A stretch of 64,000 nucleotides of DNA from Brumimicrobium oceani (GTDB taxonomy: Bacteria; Bacteroidota; Bacteroidia; Flavobacteriales_D; Crocinitomicaceae). How positions within the stretch are numbered: the stretch's first letter is position 1; the number at the start of each line of letters is the position of its first letter. Position numbers and translations under genes: made by a program. The notes under the pieces were generated by a model. That model did not search any database, had not been told where the DNA came from, and saw only the letters and a program-made list of their open reading frames with translations. Where the stretch lies: positions 1 through 64,000 of the forward strand of contig NZ_QFRJ01000012.1 in NCBI RefSeq assembly GCF_003143775.1, written 5' to 3'. Shown here piece after piece: positions 46,725 through 57,690 of this stretch.

Positions 46725-46742
46725 CGTACATTTAAACGTACG
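46725..46742. promoter_or_regulatory. Candidate operator of the YefM-YoeB-type operon
   Basis: CGTACATTTAAACGTACG is an 18-bp palindrome with one mismatched pair. It lies 15 bp upstream of the antitoxin ATG, where Phd/YefM-type antitoxins bind to repress their own operon. Confidence 0.6.
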
Positions 46743-46757
46743 CTAATTTCAGAAATT

Positions 46758-47009
46758 ATGAAAGCAATAACCATAACAACACTTCGTAAGAATATAAAAA
46801 AACATTTCGATTATGTTTCAGATTCAATGGGAGTAATAGTTGTACCCAGAAGTGAGGAAAAAGACGCAATTGTAATCATGTCAATTGGGGAGTACAACTC
46901 TTTGAAAGAAACAGAACATTTATTATCCACGAAAGCCAATAGGGACAGATTATATGAATCAATTCATCAGATGGATAGCGGTGAGGTAGTTCAATTTAAT
47001 GAAGGTTAA
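46758..47009 (+). CDS. yefM: YefM/Phd-type antitoxin
   Basis: This 83-residue protein starts [23 protein letters not shown] and contains [28 protein letters not shown], the standard Phd/YefM fold that binds DNA with its N-terminus and the toxin with its C-terminus. The ATG at 46758 is chosen; the frame extends to 46692 but without a sensible N-terminus. The toxin gene starts inside its 3' end (11-bp overlap), as is usual for yefM-yoeB. Confidence 0.92.
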
Positions 47010-47289
47010 AATGAATGTTGATTTTACGAAAATAGGCTGGGACGATTTTTGTTATTGGTTGGAAACTGATGTTGAAGTGGTCAAGAAAATAAAAGATCTG
47101 ATTAAATCAATAAAAGAAAACCCATTTAAAGGTTTGGGTAAACCAGAACCACTTAAACATGGATTGAAAGGCTTTTGGTCCAGGCGAATTACCGGAGAGC
47201 ATAGATTAGTTTATAAAGTAATTGGTAAAAGAGGTATTGATCAAAAATGCACAATTTTACAATGTAGATTTCATTATGACAAAAAGTAA
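46999..47289 (+). CDS. yoeB: YoeB-type toxin (ribosome-dependent mRNA interferase)
   Basis: This 96-residue basic protein matches the Txe/YoeB family: [66 protein letters not shown], ending in CRFHYDKK. The conserved catalytic Glu (in GEHRLVY), Arg and the terminal His-Tyr are present, so the toxin appears active. Overlap with the antitoxin gene by 11 bp implies coupled translation. An alternative ATG lies four codons further in. Confidence 0.94.
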
Positions 47290-49192: not shown

Positions 49193-49236
49193 ATGATTTA
49201 CATCATATTTTAAACGAAAATAGCCACTTATATTTG
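49193..49236 (+). promoter_or_regulatory. FNR/CRP-like box and promoter of RNA copy A
   Basis: The dyad ATGATTTACATCAT (49193-49206; half-sites TGAT-N4-ATCA) is followed after 22 bp by a perfect -7 element TATATTTG (49229-49236). Centre-to-centre distance is 33 bp, which puts the dyad near -41, the class II activator position of FNR/CRP proteins. Copy B has the same dyad and the same spacing although the spacer sequence differs. Confidence 0.75.
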
Positions 49237-49240
49237 TACC

Positions 49241-49513
49241 GTATTTAATTGCAATTGAGCTGCTAGTTAAAGTGGCTGATTGGAAACAAACGATTTTTAC
49301 AAATTGAAAAGATTTTGAGAATTAGTTTGCTTTTATTTCTTTAGGAGATGCGAGCATCAGCCGACAAGAAAAAAAGGAAAATAAGCTCAAAAGAATTGAA
49401 TTGAATTTCGTTTGGTTCTAACCAGACACGAAATACAAAAGAAAATTGAAACGATTCTCAAATCAACATTTTCTCATCTCTCTAAGTGTACTTGAGAATT
49501 GTTTCTTTTCTTT
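49241..49513 (+). ncRNA. Candidate structured small RNA, copy A
   Basis: This ~273-nt segment has its own promoter and an intrinsic terminator and is repeated at 51114-51380. Nested complementary segments support a fold: GTATTT 49241-49246 with AAATAC 49431-49436; TTGAGCT 49255-49261 with AGCTCAA 49384-49390; GGCTGAT 49274-49280 with ATCAGCC 49356-49362. A 14-bp terminator stem (GAAACGATTCTCAA 49448-49461 / TTGAGAATTGTTTC 49492-49505) is followed by TTTTCTTT. The RNA end coordinates are inferred. A GATG/CATC hairpin competes with the ATCAGCC pairing, so alternative folds are possible. I do not recognise a known RNA family. Confidence 0.65.
49448..49513 (+). terminator. Intrinsic terminator of RNA copy A
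   Basis: A 14-bp stem with one G-U pair and a 30-nt loop is followed by TTTTCTTT. Stem and loop are identical in copy B. Confidence 0.75.
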
Positions 49514-49878
49514 AATCTGTCTCCAATCATTCCACTACAGTCTGTTCATTTGCCAAAAAAATAATTATTGATTGCATGGACTATTTGCGATTGTAAGAAA
49601 TAAAATTAGCCTAAATATCTCTTACTGTTGTCAATTTTCATCAATTTAACCCAATGGCTAATTATTAAATGCTTGCAGTTAAACATCAGGTTGGTTTTAA
49701 CCAAATACATTTTTAAAGCTTTTTTCAAAACACAGGAAAAGACGCTAACATTTATTGTTTATCCGGATAATTTATAACTCTTTAATAGTATATGGAGCCA
49801 ATTATTTTAATCAAATTAAATGCTTTATTAACAGAGATAAAAAAATCTACTGATTTGTCGCTTTTCAACTCAGTATTG
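49514..49878. other. Gap between RNA copy A and the 123-residue gene
   Basis: No gene is supported in this 365-bp AT-rich stretch. A small hairpin (TTGGTTTTAACCAA near 49693-49706) is the only structure noticed. Confidence 0.45.
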
Positions 49879-49922
49879 CTGATGAAAGTCATTTTTCTTC
49901 CATAGCACATCATTTATTTTTG
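49879..49922 (+). promoter_or_regulatory. FNR/CRP-like box and promoter of the 123-residue gene
   Basis: The dyad CTGATGAAAGTCAT (49879-49892; TGA-N6-TCA) is followed by the -7 element TATTTTTG (49915-49922). The 33-bp centre distance is the same as at the RNA, nadA and heme A synthase promoters. The predicted leader before the ATG is about 16 nt. Confidence 0.68.
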
Positions 49923-49942
49923 CATTTCAAATAGACTAAGTT

Positions 49943-50314
49943 ATGATTGCAGAAATTTTACAAGGTGAAGCAGTAGATTACAAAGGTTTCCAAATTTGGA
50001 ATATTGCCTCTTTCAAAGAGTTCTTGGAGGGAAATGCTGAGATTAAAGAAATTGCAAATGCTGCTTTAAAGTTAACAAACGAAAGAAAAGAACAGCTCAT
50101 CAATAAGCCTGTGAAAGATTCAATTGAATTAATGCAAGAAGTTTTAGATCAAATAGAAGATCAACATTTTTTGGTATTTGAGAAAAACGATGAGGTTTAC
50201 GAAGGACTAAAAATGATGCAACGTTCTAAAATACTTGATATTAACGTTAATGAAATGGATGATCAACATGCCTATGTAATGATTATGGACAAAGACAGTT
50301 TGAAAGCATTTTGA
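49943..50314 (+). CDS. Hypothetical protein, member of the predicted FNR/CRP-like regulon
   Basis: This 123-residue soluble, acidic protein has helices in its first two thirds (FKEFLEGNAEIKEIANAALKLTNERKEQLINKPVKDSIELMQEVLDQIEDQ) and a beta-rich end (DINVNEMDDQHAYVMIMDKDSLKAF). No cysteines or metal motifs and no family are recognised. It lies between the two copies of the structured RNA and has the same box-and-promoter layout, so it is probably expressed under the same conditions. Confidence 0.72.
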   Translation: MIAEILQGEAVDYKGFQIWNIASFKEFLEGNAEIKEIANAALKLTNERKEQLINKPVKDSIELMQEVLDQIEDQHFLVFEKNDEVYEGLKMMQRSKILDINVNEMDDQHAYVMIMDKDSLKAF

Positions 50315-50328
50315 TTTTGTCGTTGATG

Positions 50329-50370
50329 TACAGGCGCAGATGTTTTTTATAACGCCCTACCATACATTTA
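50329..50370. repeat. REP-like hairpin repeat, copy 2
   Basis: This is related to 49128-49164: both begin TACAGGCG and end with CCCTAC-A-TACATTTA-like sequence, with the central stem diverged. It lies 15 bp after the stop codon of the 123-residue gene. Confidence 0.6.
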
Positions 50371-51065
50371 GAGTTAAAATACTTATCGTCTTCTTTACCC
50401 CTAAACTATTTAAACCCCGAATTTCAATTTTGCTTTGCGAATTGTTAGTTTAATTTTATTGAAGACCTAAATTTTTATCCCTTCAATATGAAATTCCAAA
50501 TAGTTATTAGGGTGGAAATTCTTCTTTTTTAGGACGCGCTTTATCCTTTTTTGAAGGTGGAGCAGGCTAGAAGGCGCTGATAATGGCGGAAGTTCTATAG
50601 CTTTTCGGTAACGATTTTTCATCGGGAACATTATCTACTTTTAGGAGTAGAGACAAGAAACGAAGCGAAGCAAGGGCATGAATTCAAATAGAAATAGACT
50701 AGAATGCAAAATGCCAAAAAGAAAAACACTAATGAATAATGCTAATTTTACTCATATAGTAGATTGGGTAAAGGGTCCGATAGGTATAAAAATAAAATAC
50801 TTATCAAATACCTCACTGTTCAGACTAGAATTATATTCTAATTCTTCATCACCCAAACAATAATATATAACACCTTTCATCCGAAGAAACGACTGAGGAA
50901 TCTCTTTTTGATTATCGTTAAATATTAATTTGGCTTCAAAGTCATAAGTTATAGCTAGTTATTTCTAATATATAGAACTGGTAAGATAGCGGGTAACCAC
51001 ATTAGAAATTAGTGGATAGAATTTCCGATCGTTTAAAAAAAGAAATTTCAATAAATTTCTCTTTC
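50371..51065. other. Gap with no supported gene
   Basis: This roughly 700-bp stretch contains only a 61-codon frame (50678-50863) without a plausible start context or family. Segments around 50530-50660 are less AT-rich and may be a decayed gene, but nothing could be recognised. Confidence 0.45.
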
Positions 51066-51109
51066 ATGATTTACATCATATTTCATTTTAAAAGCGTGAC
51101 TTATATTTG
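51066..51109 (+). promoter_or_regulatory. FNR/CRP-like box and promoter of RNA copy B
   Basis: The dyad ATGATTTACATCAT (51066-51079) and -7 element TATATTTG (51102-51109) are identical to copy A and sit at the same 33-bp centre distance, while the 22-bp spacer has diverged. Conservation of spacing but not of spacer is what a working promoter would show. Confidence 0.75.
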
Positions 51110-51113
51110 TACC

Positions 51114-51380
51114 GTATTTAATTGCAATTGAGCTGCTAGTTAAAGTGGCTGATTGGAAACAAAGGATTTTTATAAATTGAAAAGATTTTGAGTATTAGTT
51201 TGCTTTTATTTCTTTAGGAGATGCGCGCATCAGCCGAAAAGAAAAAAATAAGCTCAAAAGAAGTGGATTTAATTTCGTTTGATTCTAACCAGACACAAAA
51301 TACAAAAGAAAATTGAAACGATTCTCAAATCAACATTTTCTCATCTCTCTAAGTGTACTTGAGAATTGTTTCTTTTTCTT
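51114..51380 (+). ncRNA. Candidate structured small RNA, copy B
   Basis: This segment is roughly 90 percent identical by eye to copy A (49241-49513), including the pairing segments GTATTT 51114-51119 / AAATAC 51298-51303, TTGAGCT 51128-51134 / AGCTCAA 51251-51257 and GGCTGAT 51147-51153 / ATCAGCC 51229-51235, and the terminator stem 51315-51328 / 51359-51372. Differences lie mostly outside the long-range stems: a 6-nt deletion in a purine tract and single substitutions. A short frame starting MRASAEKKK is open for 31 codons here but is cut by TGA after 18 codons in copy A, which argues against coding. Ends are inferred. Confidence 0.65.
51315..51380 (+). terminator. Intrinsic terminator of RNA copy B
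   Basis: The 14-bp stem and 30-nt loop are identical to those of copy A, and a TTTTTC tract follows. It separates the RNA from the nadA promoter downstream. Confidence 0.75.
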
Positions 51381-51428: not shown

Positions 51429-51472
51429 ATGATTTAGGTCATTTTTTATCATTCGCTCTATTTCTACATTTG
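51429..51472 (+). promoter_or_regulatory. FNR/CRP-like box and promoter of nadA
   Basis: The dyad ATGATTTAGGTCAT (51429-51442) and -7 element TACATTTG (51465-51472) have a 33-bp centre distance. The predicted leader to the nadA ATG is about 80 nt. Confidence 0.7.
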
Positions 51473-51554: not shown

Positions 51555-52511
51555 ATGTCAAATAAAGAAGAATTAAAATCAGCAATTTTAAAGCTAAAAA
51601 AAGAGAAGAATGCAGTAATTCTTGCACATTATTATCAAGAAAAAGATATCCAAGATGTTGCAGATTATATTGGAGATAGTTTGGGCTTAGCCGTGGAAGC
51701 GTCCAAGACCGACGCTGAGATTATTGTATTTGCTGGGGTTCATTTCATGGCTGAAACAGCAAAGTTATTAAATCCAACACGGAAAGTGGTGCTACCAGAC
51801 CTTAAGGCAGGGTGCTCTTTAGCGGATTCATGTCCACCAGAACAGTTTAAGGCTTTTACAGAGGCACATCCAGATCATAAGGTGGTTACTTACGTGAATT
51901 GTACAGCAGAGGTGAAAGCGTTGAGCGATATCGTTTGTACTTCTTCCAATGCCGTAGATATCATTAATTCTTTCCCAATTGATCAGAAAATAATATTTGC
52001 CCCAGATCAAAATTTAGGGAAGTATTTACAAAAGGAAACAGGCCGTGATCTTCTATTGTGGGAAGGTGCTTGTATAGTGCATGAGGCTTTTTCATTTGAT
52101 AAATTGCTGAAATTAAAAATTGAACTTCCTGATGCAAAGCTTGTTGCGCATCCAGAGTCTGAGCCTCACATCTTGGAAGTAGCCGATTATGTTGGTTCTA
52201 CCAGTAAAATGATCAACTACATTAAAAATTCTGATGCAGAAACCTTTATAGTGGGAACAGAAGCAGGAATTCTGCACGAACTAAGTAAGCAAGCTCCAGG
52301 GAAGAATTTGGTGCCATTACCTATTCATGAAGACAATACTTGTGCCTGCAGTGAATGTGCATTCATGAAGGTAAATACCTTAGAAAAGGTATATAATTGT
52401 TTGTTGAATGAAACTCCAGAAATTAATATTGACCCTGCAATTTTTGATAAAGCAAAGGCTCCTATTGTAAAGATGATTGAATTCTCTAAACTGGTTCCGC
52501 ATGAAAACTAA
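51555..52511 (+). CDS. nadA: Quinolinate synthase A
   Basis: This 318-residue [4Fe-4S] enzyme condenses iminoaspartate with dihydroxyacetone phosphate to quinolinate, the NAD precursor. The three cluster cysteines are in [11 protein letters not shown], the DIVCTSSNA region and [13 protein letters not shown]. Substrate motifs such as [25 protein letters not shown] and the TEAGILHEL segment are present. It overlaps nadB by 11 bp, so the two are translated together. A predicted FNR/CRP-like promoter lies upstream, interesting because the cluster is oxygen-sensitive. Confidence 0.97.
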
Positions 52512-56745: not shown

Positions 56746-57690
56746 ATGGAAACATTAGATGTAACGAAGATTGAACCAAAGTTTAAGCATCCTGCAATAT
56801 TTGAAAAGTTTGCAGAATTAGAGAATAAAGAACACTTTATTATTCACAATGATCACGATCCAAAGCCACTATATTACCAAATGTTGGCTGAATTAGGAGA
56901 GGTCTTTACTTGGGAGTATATTCTGGAAGGCCCTGAGTTTTGGGAGGTAAAAATCACCAAAGTAACGAAAGAAGAAAAGATCGCTACAATGGGAGAGATG
57001 GTTGCTGAAGATTTCCGTAAAGCTGAGGTCTTTAGAAAATTTGGTCTTGATTTTTGCTGCGGAGGTAAAATTACTGTTCAGAGGGCATGCGAGAAAAAAG
57101 GAATTGACCACAGGGAAGTTCAAAGGGAACTAGATGCAATAAGTAATGCAAATGGCTCAAGAAATGAAAATTTCAATGAGTGGGAATTAGATTTTTTAAG
57201 TGATTTTATCGTAAATAATCACCACAAATATGTGACAGATTCCTTGCCTATGTTGTTGGAATACAGTGCGAAAGTTGCACGTGTTCATGGAGAAGCACAT
57301 CCTGAAACAATAGATATTGCTCATTTCTTTAAAAATGTAGCGGAAGAGTTGATGAATCACATGCCAAAAGAAGAGAATATCTTATTCCCTTATATTAAAG
57401 AAATGGTTGCCGCTAAAAAGGCAGGAAATAAGGTTGAAAAACCAGGATTTGGTACAATCGTTAATCCAATCAATATGATGGAGGCGGAGCACTTAGTTGC
57501 AGGTGATGATATGGAGAAAATTCATGAATTAAGTGACAACTATCAACCACCAGCAAGCGCTTGTAATACTTACAGGGTATTGTATGCAAAACTACAAGAG
57601 TTCGAAAAAGACCTACACCAACACATTCATTTAGAGAATAACATTCTTTTCAAAAAAGCAATAGAACTAGAAAAAGAAGTGATGGCGTAA
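56746..57690 (+). CDS. ric: Iron-sulfur cluster repair di-iron protein with N-terminal DUF2249 domain
   Basis: This 314-residue protein has a DUF2249 domain (about residues 1-72), a ScdA_N/DUF542 motif EVFRKFGLDFCCGGK (about residues 97-111), and a hemerythrin-like di-iron domain with spaced histidines (NNHHKYV, HGEAHPE, NHMPKEENILFPYI, EAEHLVAGDD, HQHIHLENNILF). RIC/YtfE proteins repair Fe-S clusters damaged by nitric oxide or oxidants. Fusion to DUF2249 fits the next genes, which carry the same domain. It heads a five-gene cluster (56.7-60.7 kb). An FNR/CRP-like dyad lies upstream. Confidence 0.94.
   Translation: METLDVTKIEPKFKHPAIFEKFAELENKEHFIIHNDHDPKPLYYQMLAELGEVFTWEYILEGPEFWEVKITKVTKEEKIATMGEMVAEDFRKAEVFRKFGLDFCCGGKITVQRACEKKGIDHREVQRELDAISNANGSRNENFNEWELDFLSDFIVNNHHKYVTDSLPMLLEYSAKVARVHGEAHPETIDIAHFFKNVAEELMNHMPKEENILFPYIKEMVAAKKAGNKVEKPGFGTIVNPINMMEAEHLVAGDDMEKIHELSDNYQPPASACNTYRVLYAKLQEFEKDLHQHIHLENNILFKKAIELEKEVMA

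Follow-up and report, generated by a model that had tools for sequence, protein, structure and literature searches.

A predicted, duplicated small RNA gene with FNR/CRP-type promoters and a MITE-like insert in Brumimicrobium oceani, and its candidate target

Introduction

FnrS is an E. coli small RNA that, in the available excerpt of its description, is activated by FNR and ArcA and represses the mRNAs of oxidative metabolism (PMC10993149). The locus analyzed here resembles FnrS, as that excerpt portrays it, in having a small RNA gene behind an FNR-type site, in a proposed pairing that would block translation of an mRNA and in a proposed link to respiration (PMC10993149). It differs in that the terminator hairpin is proposed to provide the seed with its own loop, and in its phylum, genes and neighbourhood (PMC10993149). 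The RNA described here also has no Rfam match, and membership in the sequence family of FnrS was not found. A second comparison is offered by Rfp18 of Flavobacterium psychrophilum, likewise a flavobacterial small RNA with a proposed stem-loop pairing, which is set apart by its description, in the part available, as it acts on protease mRNAs (PMC9723704); neither Crp nor Fnr occurs as a word in the main text of that paper (PMC9723704). In Coxiella burnetii, the excerpted account places a MITE hairpin within the small RNA transcripts CbsR3, CbsR13 and CbsR16, with a promoter ahead of the MITE hairpin in CbsR3 and CbsR13, and both arrangements recur here (PMC5896051). However, the MITE constitutes the RNA in the CbsR cases of that account, whereas in the present locus an existing RNA gene is interrupted and its ends stay conserved (PMC5896051). 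Among the matches listed from the open-access literature, no title described an FNR-controlled small RNA in flavobacteria or Bacteroidetes.

The DNA analyzed is a stretch of 64,000 nucleotides from Brumimicrobium oceani (contig NZ_QFRJ01000012.1, positions 1 to 64,000), referred to below as the window.

Results and Discussion

Layout of the twin blocks

Two non-coding blocks in one orientation were found in the window sequence and by pairwise alignment, and each of them is composed of two nested things, a small RNA gene of about 105 nt and a transposon-like insert. The features of the two copies are as follows.

49193..49206, plus strand: FNR/CRP-type dyad ATGATTTACATCAT of copy A, with the same letters in copy B; part of the dyad-N23-TANNTTTG composite
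49229..49236, plus strand: -7 element TATATTTG of copy A, from the window sequence and the composite motif scan
49241..49269, plus strand: 5' segment of small RNA A, with a putative start, holding GCAATTGAGCTGCTA; compared between copies over 49243-49269
49270..49431, no strand: MITE-like insert of copy A, 162 bp, a dispersed repeat; no insert at the orthologous places in G001, G004 and G005
49448..49509, plus strand: terminator hairpin and T run of small RNA A, fold z -6.43; compared between copies over 49446-49505
49472-49483, plus strand: 12-nt apical loop of small RNA A, with the seed at 49474-49483, the complement of which is AGAGAGATGA
51066..51079, plus strand: FNR/CRP-type dyad ATGATTTACATCAT of copy B, from the alignment with copy A and the composite motif scan
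51102..51109, plus strand: -7 element TATATTTG of copy B, from the same alignment and scan
51114..51142, plus strand: 5' segment of small RNA B, with a putative start, from the alignment with copy A
51143..51298, no strand: MITE-like insert of copy B, 156 bp
51315..51376, plus strand: terminator hairpin and T run of small RNA B, with the seed loop at 51341-51350

The original prediction had described near-identical blocks of the same orientation with the same dyad and -7 element at equal spacing, a 14-bp terminator stem common to both and a dyad-to-(-7) spacer that had diverged in sequence and kept its length; all of this is borne out by the alignment. The spacer differs at nine of 25 positions, whereas the dyad region (19 positions) and the -7 element with the start region (11 positions) are free of differences, as are the 5' segment (27 positions), the linker (15 positions) and the terminator hairpin (60 positions), in which the 14-bp stem is identical. 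Two substitutions occur in the wider 3' row of the alignment (83 positions), both of them outside the hairpin. The inserts differ by ten substitutions in 155 positions and a gap of six columns. The pooled segments of the RNA gene thus show 0 differences in 132 positions compared with 10 in 155 for the insert (Fisher p 0.002), and because of this and the 6-nt gap in the insert, the RNA seems to have been under selection since the insertion.

Promoter motif and predicted regulon

The -7 element of Bacteroidota promoters has the consensus TANNTTTG. The composite TGATNNNNRTCA-N23-TANNTTTG was found at 22 sites in ten genomes of the genus and at none in the reversed control. Four composite promoters with a spacing of 23 occur in the window, ahead of small RNA A, a 123-aa ORF, small RNA B and nadA, and none was found at spacings of 15-22 or 24-31. 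A variant scan with 22 spacer bases and a looser dyad gave five sites compared with two in the control. The dyad alone is mildly over-represented in the window, with 63 matches at up to one mismatch against 47.7 expected; the striking feature is the dyad plus the -7 element at a fixed spacing rather than the dyad alone. The site has the class II position of FNR/CRP-type activation, near -41.5 when counted from the putative start at about 49241. The two further promoters and the genes behind them are given below.

49880..49922, plus strand: promoter of the 123-aa ORF, dyad-N23-TATTTTTG, from the composite motif scan
49943..50314, plus strand: 123-aa ORF with its own dyad-N23 promoter; by eye, G005 has an ORF like it after the RNA
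51429..51472, plus strand: promoter of nadA, dyad-N23-TACATTTG, from the composite motif scan
51555..52511, plus strand: nadA, quinolinate synthase (Pfam NadA, E 2.2e-122); the next ORF is FAD-binding and presumed to be nadB

The presence of the same promoter at nadA and the 123-aa ORF, together with RNA gene ends that are conserved in four species, agrees with the original prediction, which proposed a small RNA gene that is duplicated, is driven by a promoter of the FNR/CRP type and has its own terminator. In the genus, composite sites also precede what we take to be sulphate permease genes (G003, G004) and a cysH/cysD-like cluster (G000, G004), and presumably a lipoprotein gene before a peroxidase (G001, G005) and a CRP/FNR-family gene (G007). 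The genes behind dyad-N23-TANNTTTG in the genus are a predicted small shared regulon (loci L157, L159, L158, L165, L162, L163 and L174). As a side observation, the composite promoter stands in genus relatives ahead of sulphur-assimilation-like, YceI-like, small membrane protein and CRP/FNR-family genes. No FNR-like cysteine cluster was seen by eye in the CRP/FNR-type gene of G007.

Uninterrupted relatives of the RNA gene

The small RNA is carried by four species of one genus, namely the genome studied (G000), G001, G004 and G005. In the last three, the parts that flank the insert in B. oceani are joined, so that the dyad, the -7 element, a short 5' segment and the terminator hairpin follow one another, and the uninterrupted RNA has a predicted length of about 105 nt. 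The GCAATTGAGCTGCTA of the 5' segment is present in G004 and G005 and absent in G001. A model of the 73-nt hairpin region (R1) was searched in 240 genomes of the family, with stricter filters that lose weak matches, and nine of them matched at E <= 0.1. Four of the nine are the carriers, and the five weak matches (G133, G174, G249, G204 and G087; E 1.5e-4 to 0.086) were judged unrelated, as they resembled a terminator or coding sequence by eye. When R1 was applied to 43 of 80 nadA loci and to L141, the best match outside the window reached only E 0.6 (L077). The absence of a known RNA family, as originally noted, holds for the Rfam scan of the window, which gave no matches at gathering scores, and a permissive Rfam scan of the three relatives returned one sub-threshold microRNA match that was judged to be chance. 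A peptide-coding role was rejected, as ATG is absent from the RNA in four of five copies (A and B taken minus the insert); the G004 RNA has one ATG, which lies within the hairpin, and the MITE-like insert holds an ATG as well.

Hairpin structure and apical loop

The 62-nt terminator hairpin alone folds better than its shuffles, with z -6.43. In the alignment of five rows (A2), which contains 25 pairs, all 124 of 124 cells are standard pairs. Three pairs are changed on both sides, two of them at the base of the stem; this number was reached by 14 of 500 shuffles, and partners that were slid gave at most one. The number of further pair types in A2 is not above that of the shuffles (108 of 500). 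Of the 12 columns in the apical loop, 11 are invariant, compared with one of six in the internal unpaired columns (25-28 and 53-54), and since the loop stays constant where other unpaired columns vary, a role for its sequence is suggested.

Candidate targets

The sequence AGAGAGAUGA, to which the apical loop is complementary, spans the start codon in the DUF6691/YedE-like gene of all four carriers. The gene encodes a 137-aa Sulf_transp/DUF6691 protein in an operon with the order universal stress protein, YeeE-like protein, DUF6691, and it is found in eight of ten genomes of the genus. A total of thirty-one places in the four carriers contain AGAGAGATGA, the complement of ten of the twelve loop bases, and five of these are the RNA itself; the remaining 26 compare with 16 in the backward control over the four genomes, an excess that is not large. 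Thirty of the 31 places were read, and among these DUF6691 alone had AGAGAGATGA at the gene start in every one of the four carriers. When DUF6691 starts were compared (21 of 29 places), the sequence was found at none of the four starts in non-carriers of the genus that have the gene (G002, G003, G008, G009) and in none of 13 further rows. The predicted duplex between the loop and the DUF6691 start has an energy of -16.1 to -17.2 kcal/mol in carriers compared with -2.2 to -5.3 kcal/mol in the four non-carriers, against a background of 821 starts that is biased, since the motif had served to fetch many of the loci. In G024 a partial match lies a few bases before the DUF6691 start (duplex -10.9 kcal/mol), and the RNA was not found in that genome. 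A match at a gene start in G008 (19/20) was dropped because the RNA was not found in G008.

The non-carrier G003 groups with G000 and G004 with a support of 100 in the DNA tree and 99 in the protein tree, and it falls inside the carriers when the tree is rooted on G008, G009 and G011; the tree comprises nine genomes and four genes, three of which come from the DUF6691 operon itself. The simplest reading would be that G003 lost the RNA together with the target sequence.

The small RNA may instead be real and under FNR/CRP-type regulation while acting on other mRNAs or on a protein; AGAGAG at start codons would then serve translation as a purine-rich signal, and shared descent or coincidence would account for the DUF6691 pattern. 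We consider this a live possibility on the doubtful side. An argument for it comes from coxB (cytochrome c oxidase subunit II, COX2_TM). The sequence AGAGAGATG occurs at 79 places in the four carriers compared with 41 in the backward control (78 distinct contexts were read), and it stands at the coxB start in all four carriers, but also in the non-carriers G002, G003, G006 and G020, that is, in four of 17 valid non-carrier rows (22 of 37 places were compared, and G011 gave the wrong protein). AGAGAG-ATG can therefore exist without the RNA, and coxB was rejected as proof of co-evolution between RNA and target, although it may itself be a target. Several other genes have such a start in single genomes or in two, among them fixH (G005), a pyruvate-carboxylase-like gene (G000) and a gene for a 90-aa protein (G000, G005), and a lipoprotein gene start in G000 has 12 matching bases, with a shorter match in its G001 relative. 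On the other hand, starts of this type are rare, as none of the 49 window ORFs of at least 150 aa has AGAG within 12 nt before its start. The sequence at DUF6691 tracks the RNA, the nested non-carrier G003 included, and the loop sequence is itself conserved.

Neighbourhood of the RNA gene

In each of the four carriers nadA is located downstream of the RNA gene, which itself comes after an aldehyde dehydrogenase in G000 and G004 and after a di-haem peroxidase in G001 and G005, the neighbours in G004 and G005 being assigned by resemblance. The 123-aa ORF, found near the RNA gene in G000 and G005, has no Pfam family and no relative in a search of the genome contigs. nadA was found in five of ten genomes of the genus, the four carriers and G007, and no such RNA gene was found upstream of nadA in G007, either by eye or with R1. 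The constant position before nadA would suit a cis-acting unit of promoter and terminator that interferes with transcription or insulates nadA from upstream transcription, its RNA being functionless, and nadA has a promoter of the same type of its own in G000, G001 and G005. We regard such a unit as unlikely, since it leaves unexplained both the conservation of the 12-nt loop and the co-occurrence in trans with DUF6691.

Two further genes in the window are recorded here as side observations. A YefM/YoeB-type toxin-antitoxin pair (Pfam) lies at 46737-47289, immediately upstream of the aldehyde dehydrogenase. A DUF2249-ScdA_N-hemerythrin protein of the iron-sulphur repair type is encoded at 56746-57690, which fits a nitric oxide or low-oxygen neighbourhood, and no exact composite promoter was found at this gene.

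The MITE-like insert

A BLAST search of copy A against its own genome found 15 places, 13 besides the twin blocks, and these 13 match all or part of the middle of copy A (about 160 nt). Among them are two pairs that each resemble a single element broken up by another insert, and the repeat is also present in G001, G004 and G005. The ends of the element were examined in nineteen copies. Five copies (L004, L005, L006, L011 and L030) have a length of 163-166 bp, ends of TAGTGCTTGGTCGGAAACA with one to four mismatches over both ends and folds of -45 to -61 kcal/mol. Four others (L007, L017, L023 and L027) have 146-195 bp and three to seven end mismatches, whereas at least 12 mismatches were counted in L003, L008, L010, L016, L019, L020 and L021, where some of the high counts come from wrongly paired sites and some from membership in a divergent subfamily; for L024 no end pair was obtained. 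The best copies have TA at either end, which is compatible with a TA duplication. Inserts A and B have degenerate inverted ends, and the insertion looks old because each of them has 11 end mismatches. As a short dispersed element with terminal inverted repeats, the insert seems to be an old copy from a dispersed family of MITE-like elements, the term MITE naming its form.

Other observations were made on this family. A second repeat with ends near AAATGCCTATCCGATACTTTACCAG apparently lies inside two MITE-like copies at the same internal place (L031/L028, G000:C1:184538-185018; L032/L029, G000:C23:56510-57577). L010, L016, L019 and L020 form a divergent subfamily with ends near TAGTTTGTATTTGAAAACAGA, beside another repeat containing GGGAGCTTCACAAGG. 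In L021, L024 and L027 a gene's stop codon marks the exact beginning of the element, as though the element served as a transcription terminator.

That the blocks are merely a decaying repeat with no functional RNA is very improbable: the middle part is a dispersed repeat with degenerate ends, but the ends outside the repeat show conservation across four species, and 132 positions in them are identical between the copies. The original prediction had argued against a decayed repeat, with a match to a scattered repeat family named as grounds for giving up that view; it does not hold for the middle, which has such a match, and stands for the conserved ends. We give practically no credence to the earlier reading that the whole of about 270 nt is one evolved structured RNA. 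The 271-nt stretch does fold better than its shuffles (z -5.07), but its middle part, a dispersed repeat, is lacking in the three orthologues and drifts more quickly than the ends do. The nested long-range complementary segments, once read as RNA structure, belong to the degenerate insert, and the substitutions that had been noted to break pairs in copy B are present and sit in the insert, consistent with drift. In the predicted fold the insert is a self-contained hairpin while the 5' hairpin and the terminator hairpin stay intact, an arrangement that would account for the tolerance of the insertion.

Proposed mechanism and significance

The observed parts of the mechanism proposed here are the promoter motif, its fixed spacing, the conservation, and the complementarity at the DUF6691 start with its co-occurrence with the RNA. 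We propose an FnrS-like trans-acting repressor RNA that is activated by CRP/FNR, places its loop over the DUF6691 start and underwent insertion and then duplication, a reading for which we see belief and doubt as evenly poised. An activator of the CRP/FNR family, bound near -41.5 and responding to a presumed signal, would switch on transcription of the non-coding RNA from the putative start, and the 3' end of this RNA would be the stable terminator hairpin displaying its C/U-rich 12-nt loop. The loop may pair with AGAGAGAUGA at the start codon of DUF6691, one half of a YeeE/YedE-type sulphur-transport pair, and translation of DUF6691 would then be blocked while the regulator is active. The RNA may also act on further starts that share this sequence, for example that of cytochrome c oxidase subunit II. 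In this genome a MITE-like element would have entered the linker that joins the 5' segment to the hairpin, and the lengthened gene would have been duplicated after the insertion, with both copies retaining functional ends and the insert drifting as a self-folding RNA domain; cutting of the insert by RNase III is a guess. Tentatively, the RNA may further represent an independent Bacteroidota counterpart of FnrS, in which the seed is a terminator loop, the match at the start codon was gained and lost with the RNA, and an insertion more than doubled the length of the gene and was duplicated with it.

To our knowledge, few Bacteroidota small RNAs have a named regulator and target. For the small RNA described here, a candidate target can be named, along with a seed and a rule for the promoter. 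It would also be a natural experiment in which a regulatory RNA survives the insertion of a transposon, its ends fixed and its insert drifting.
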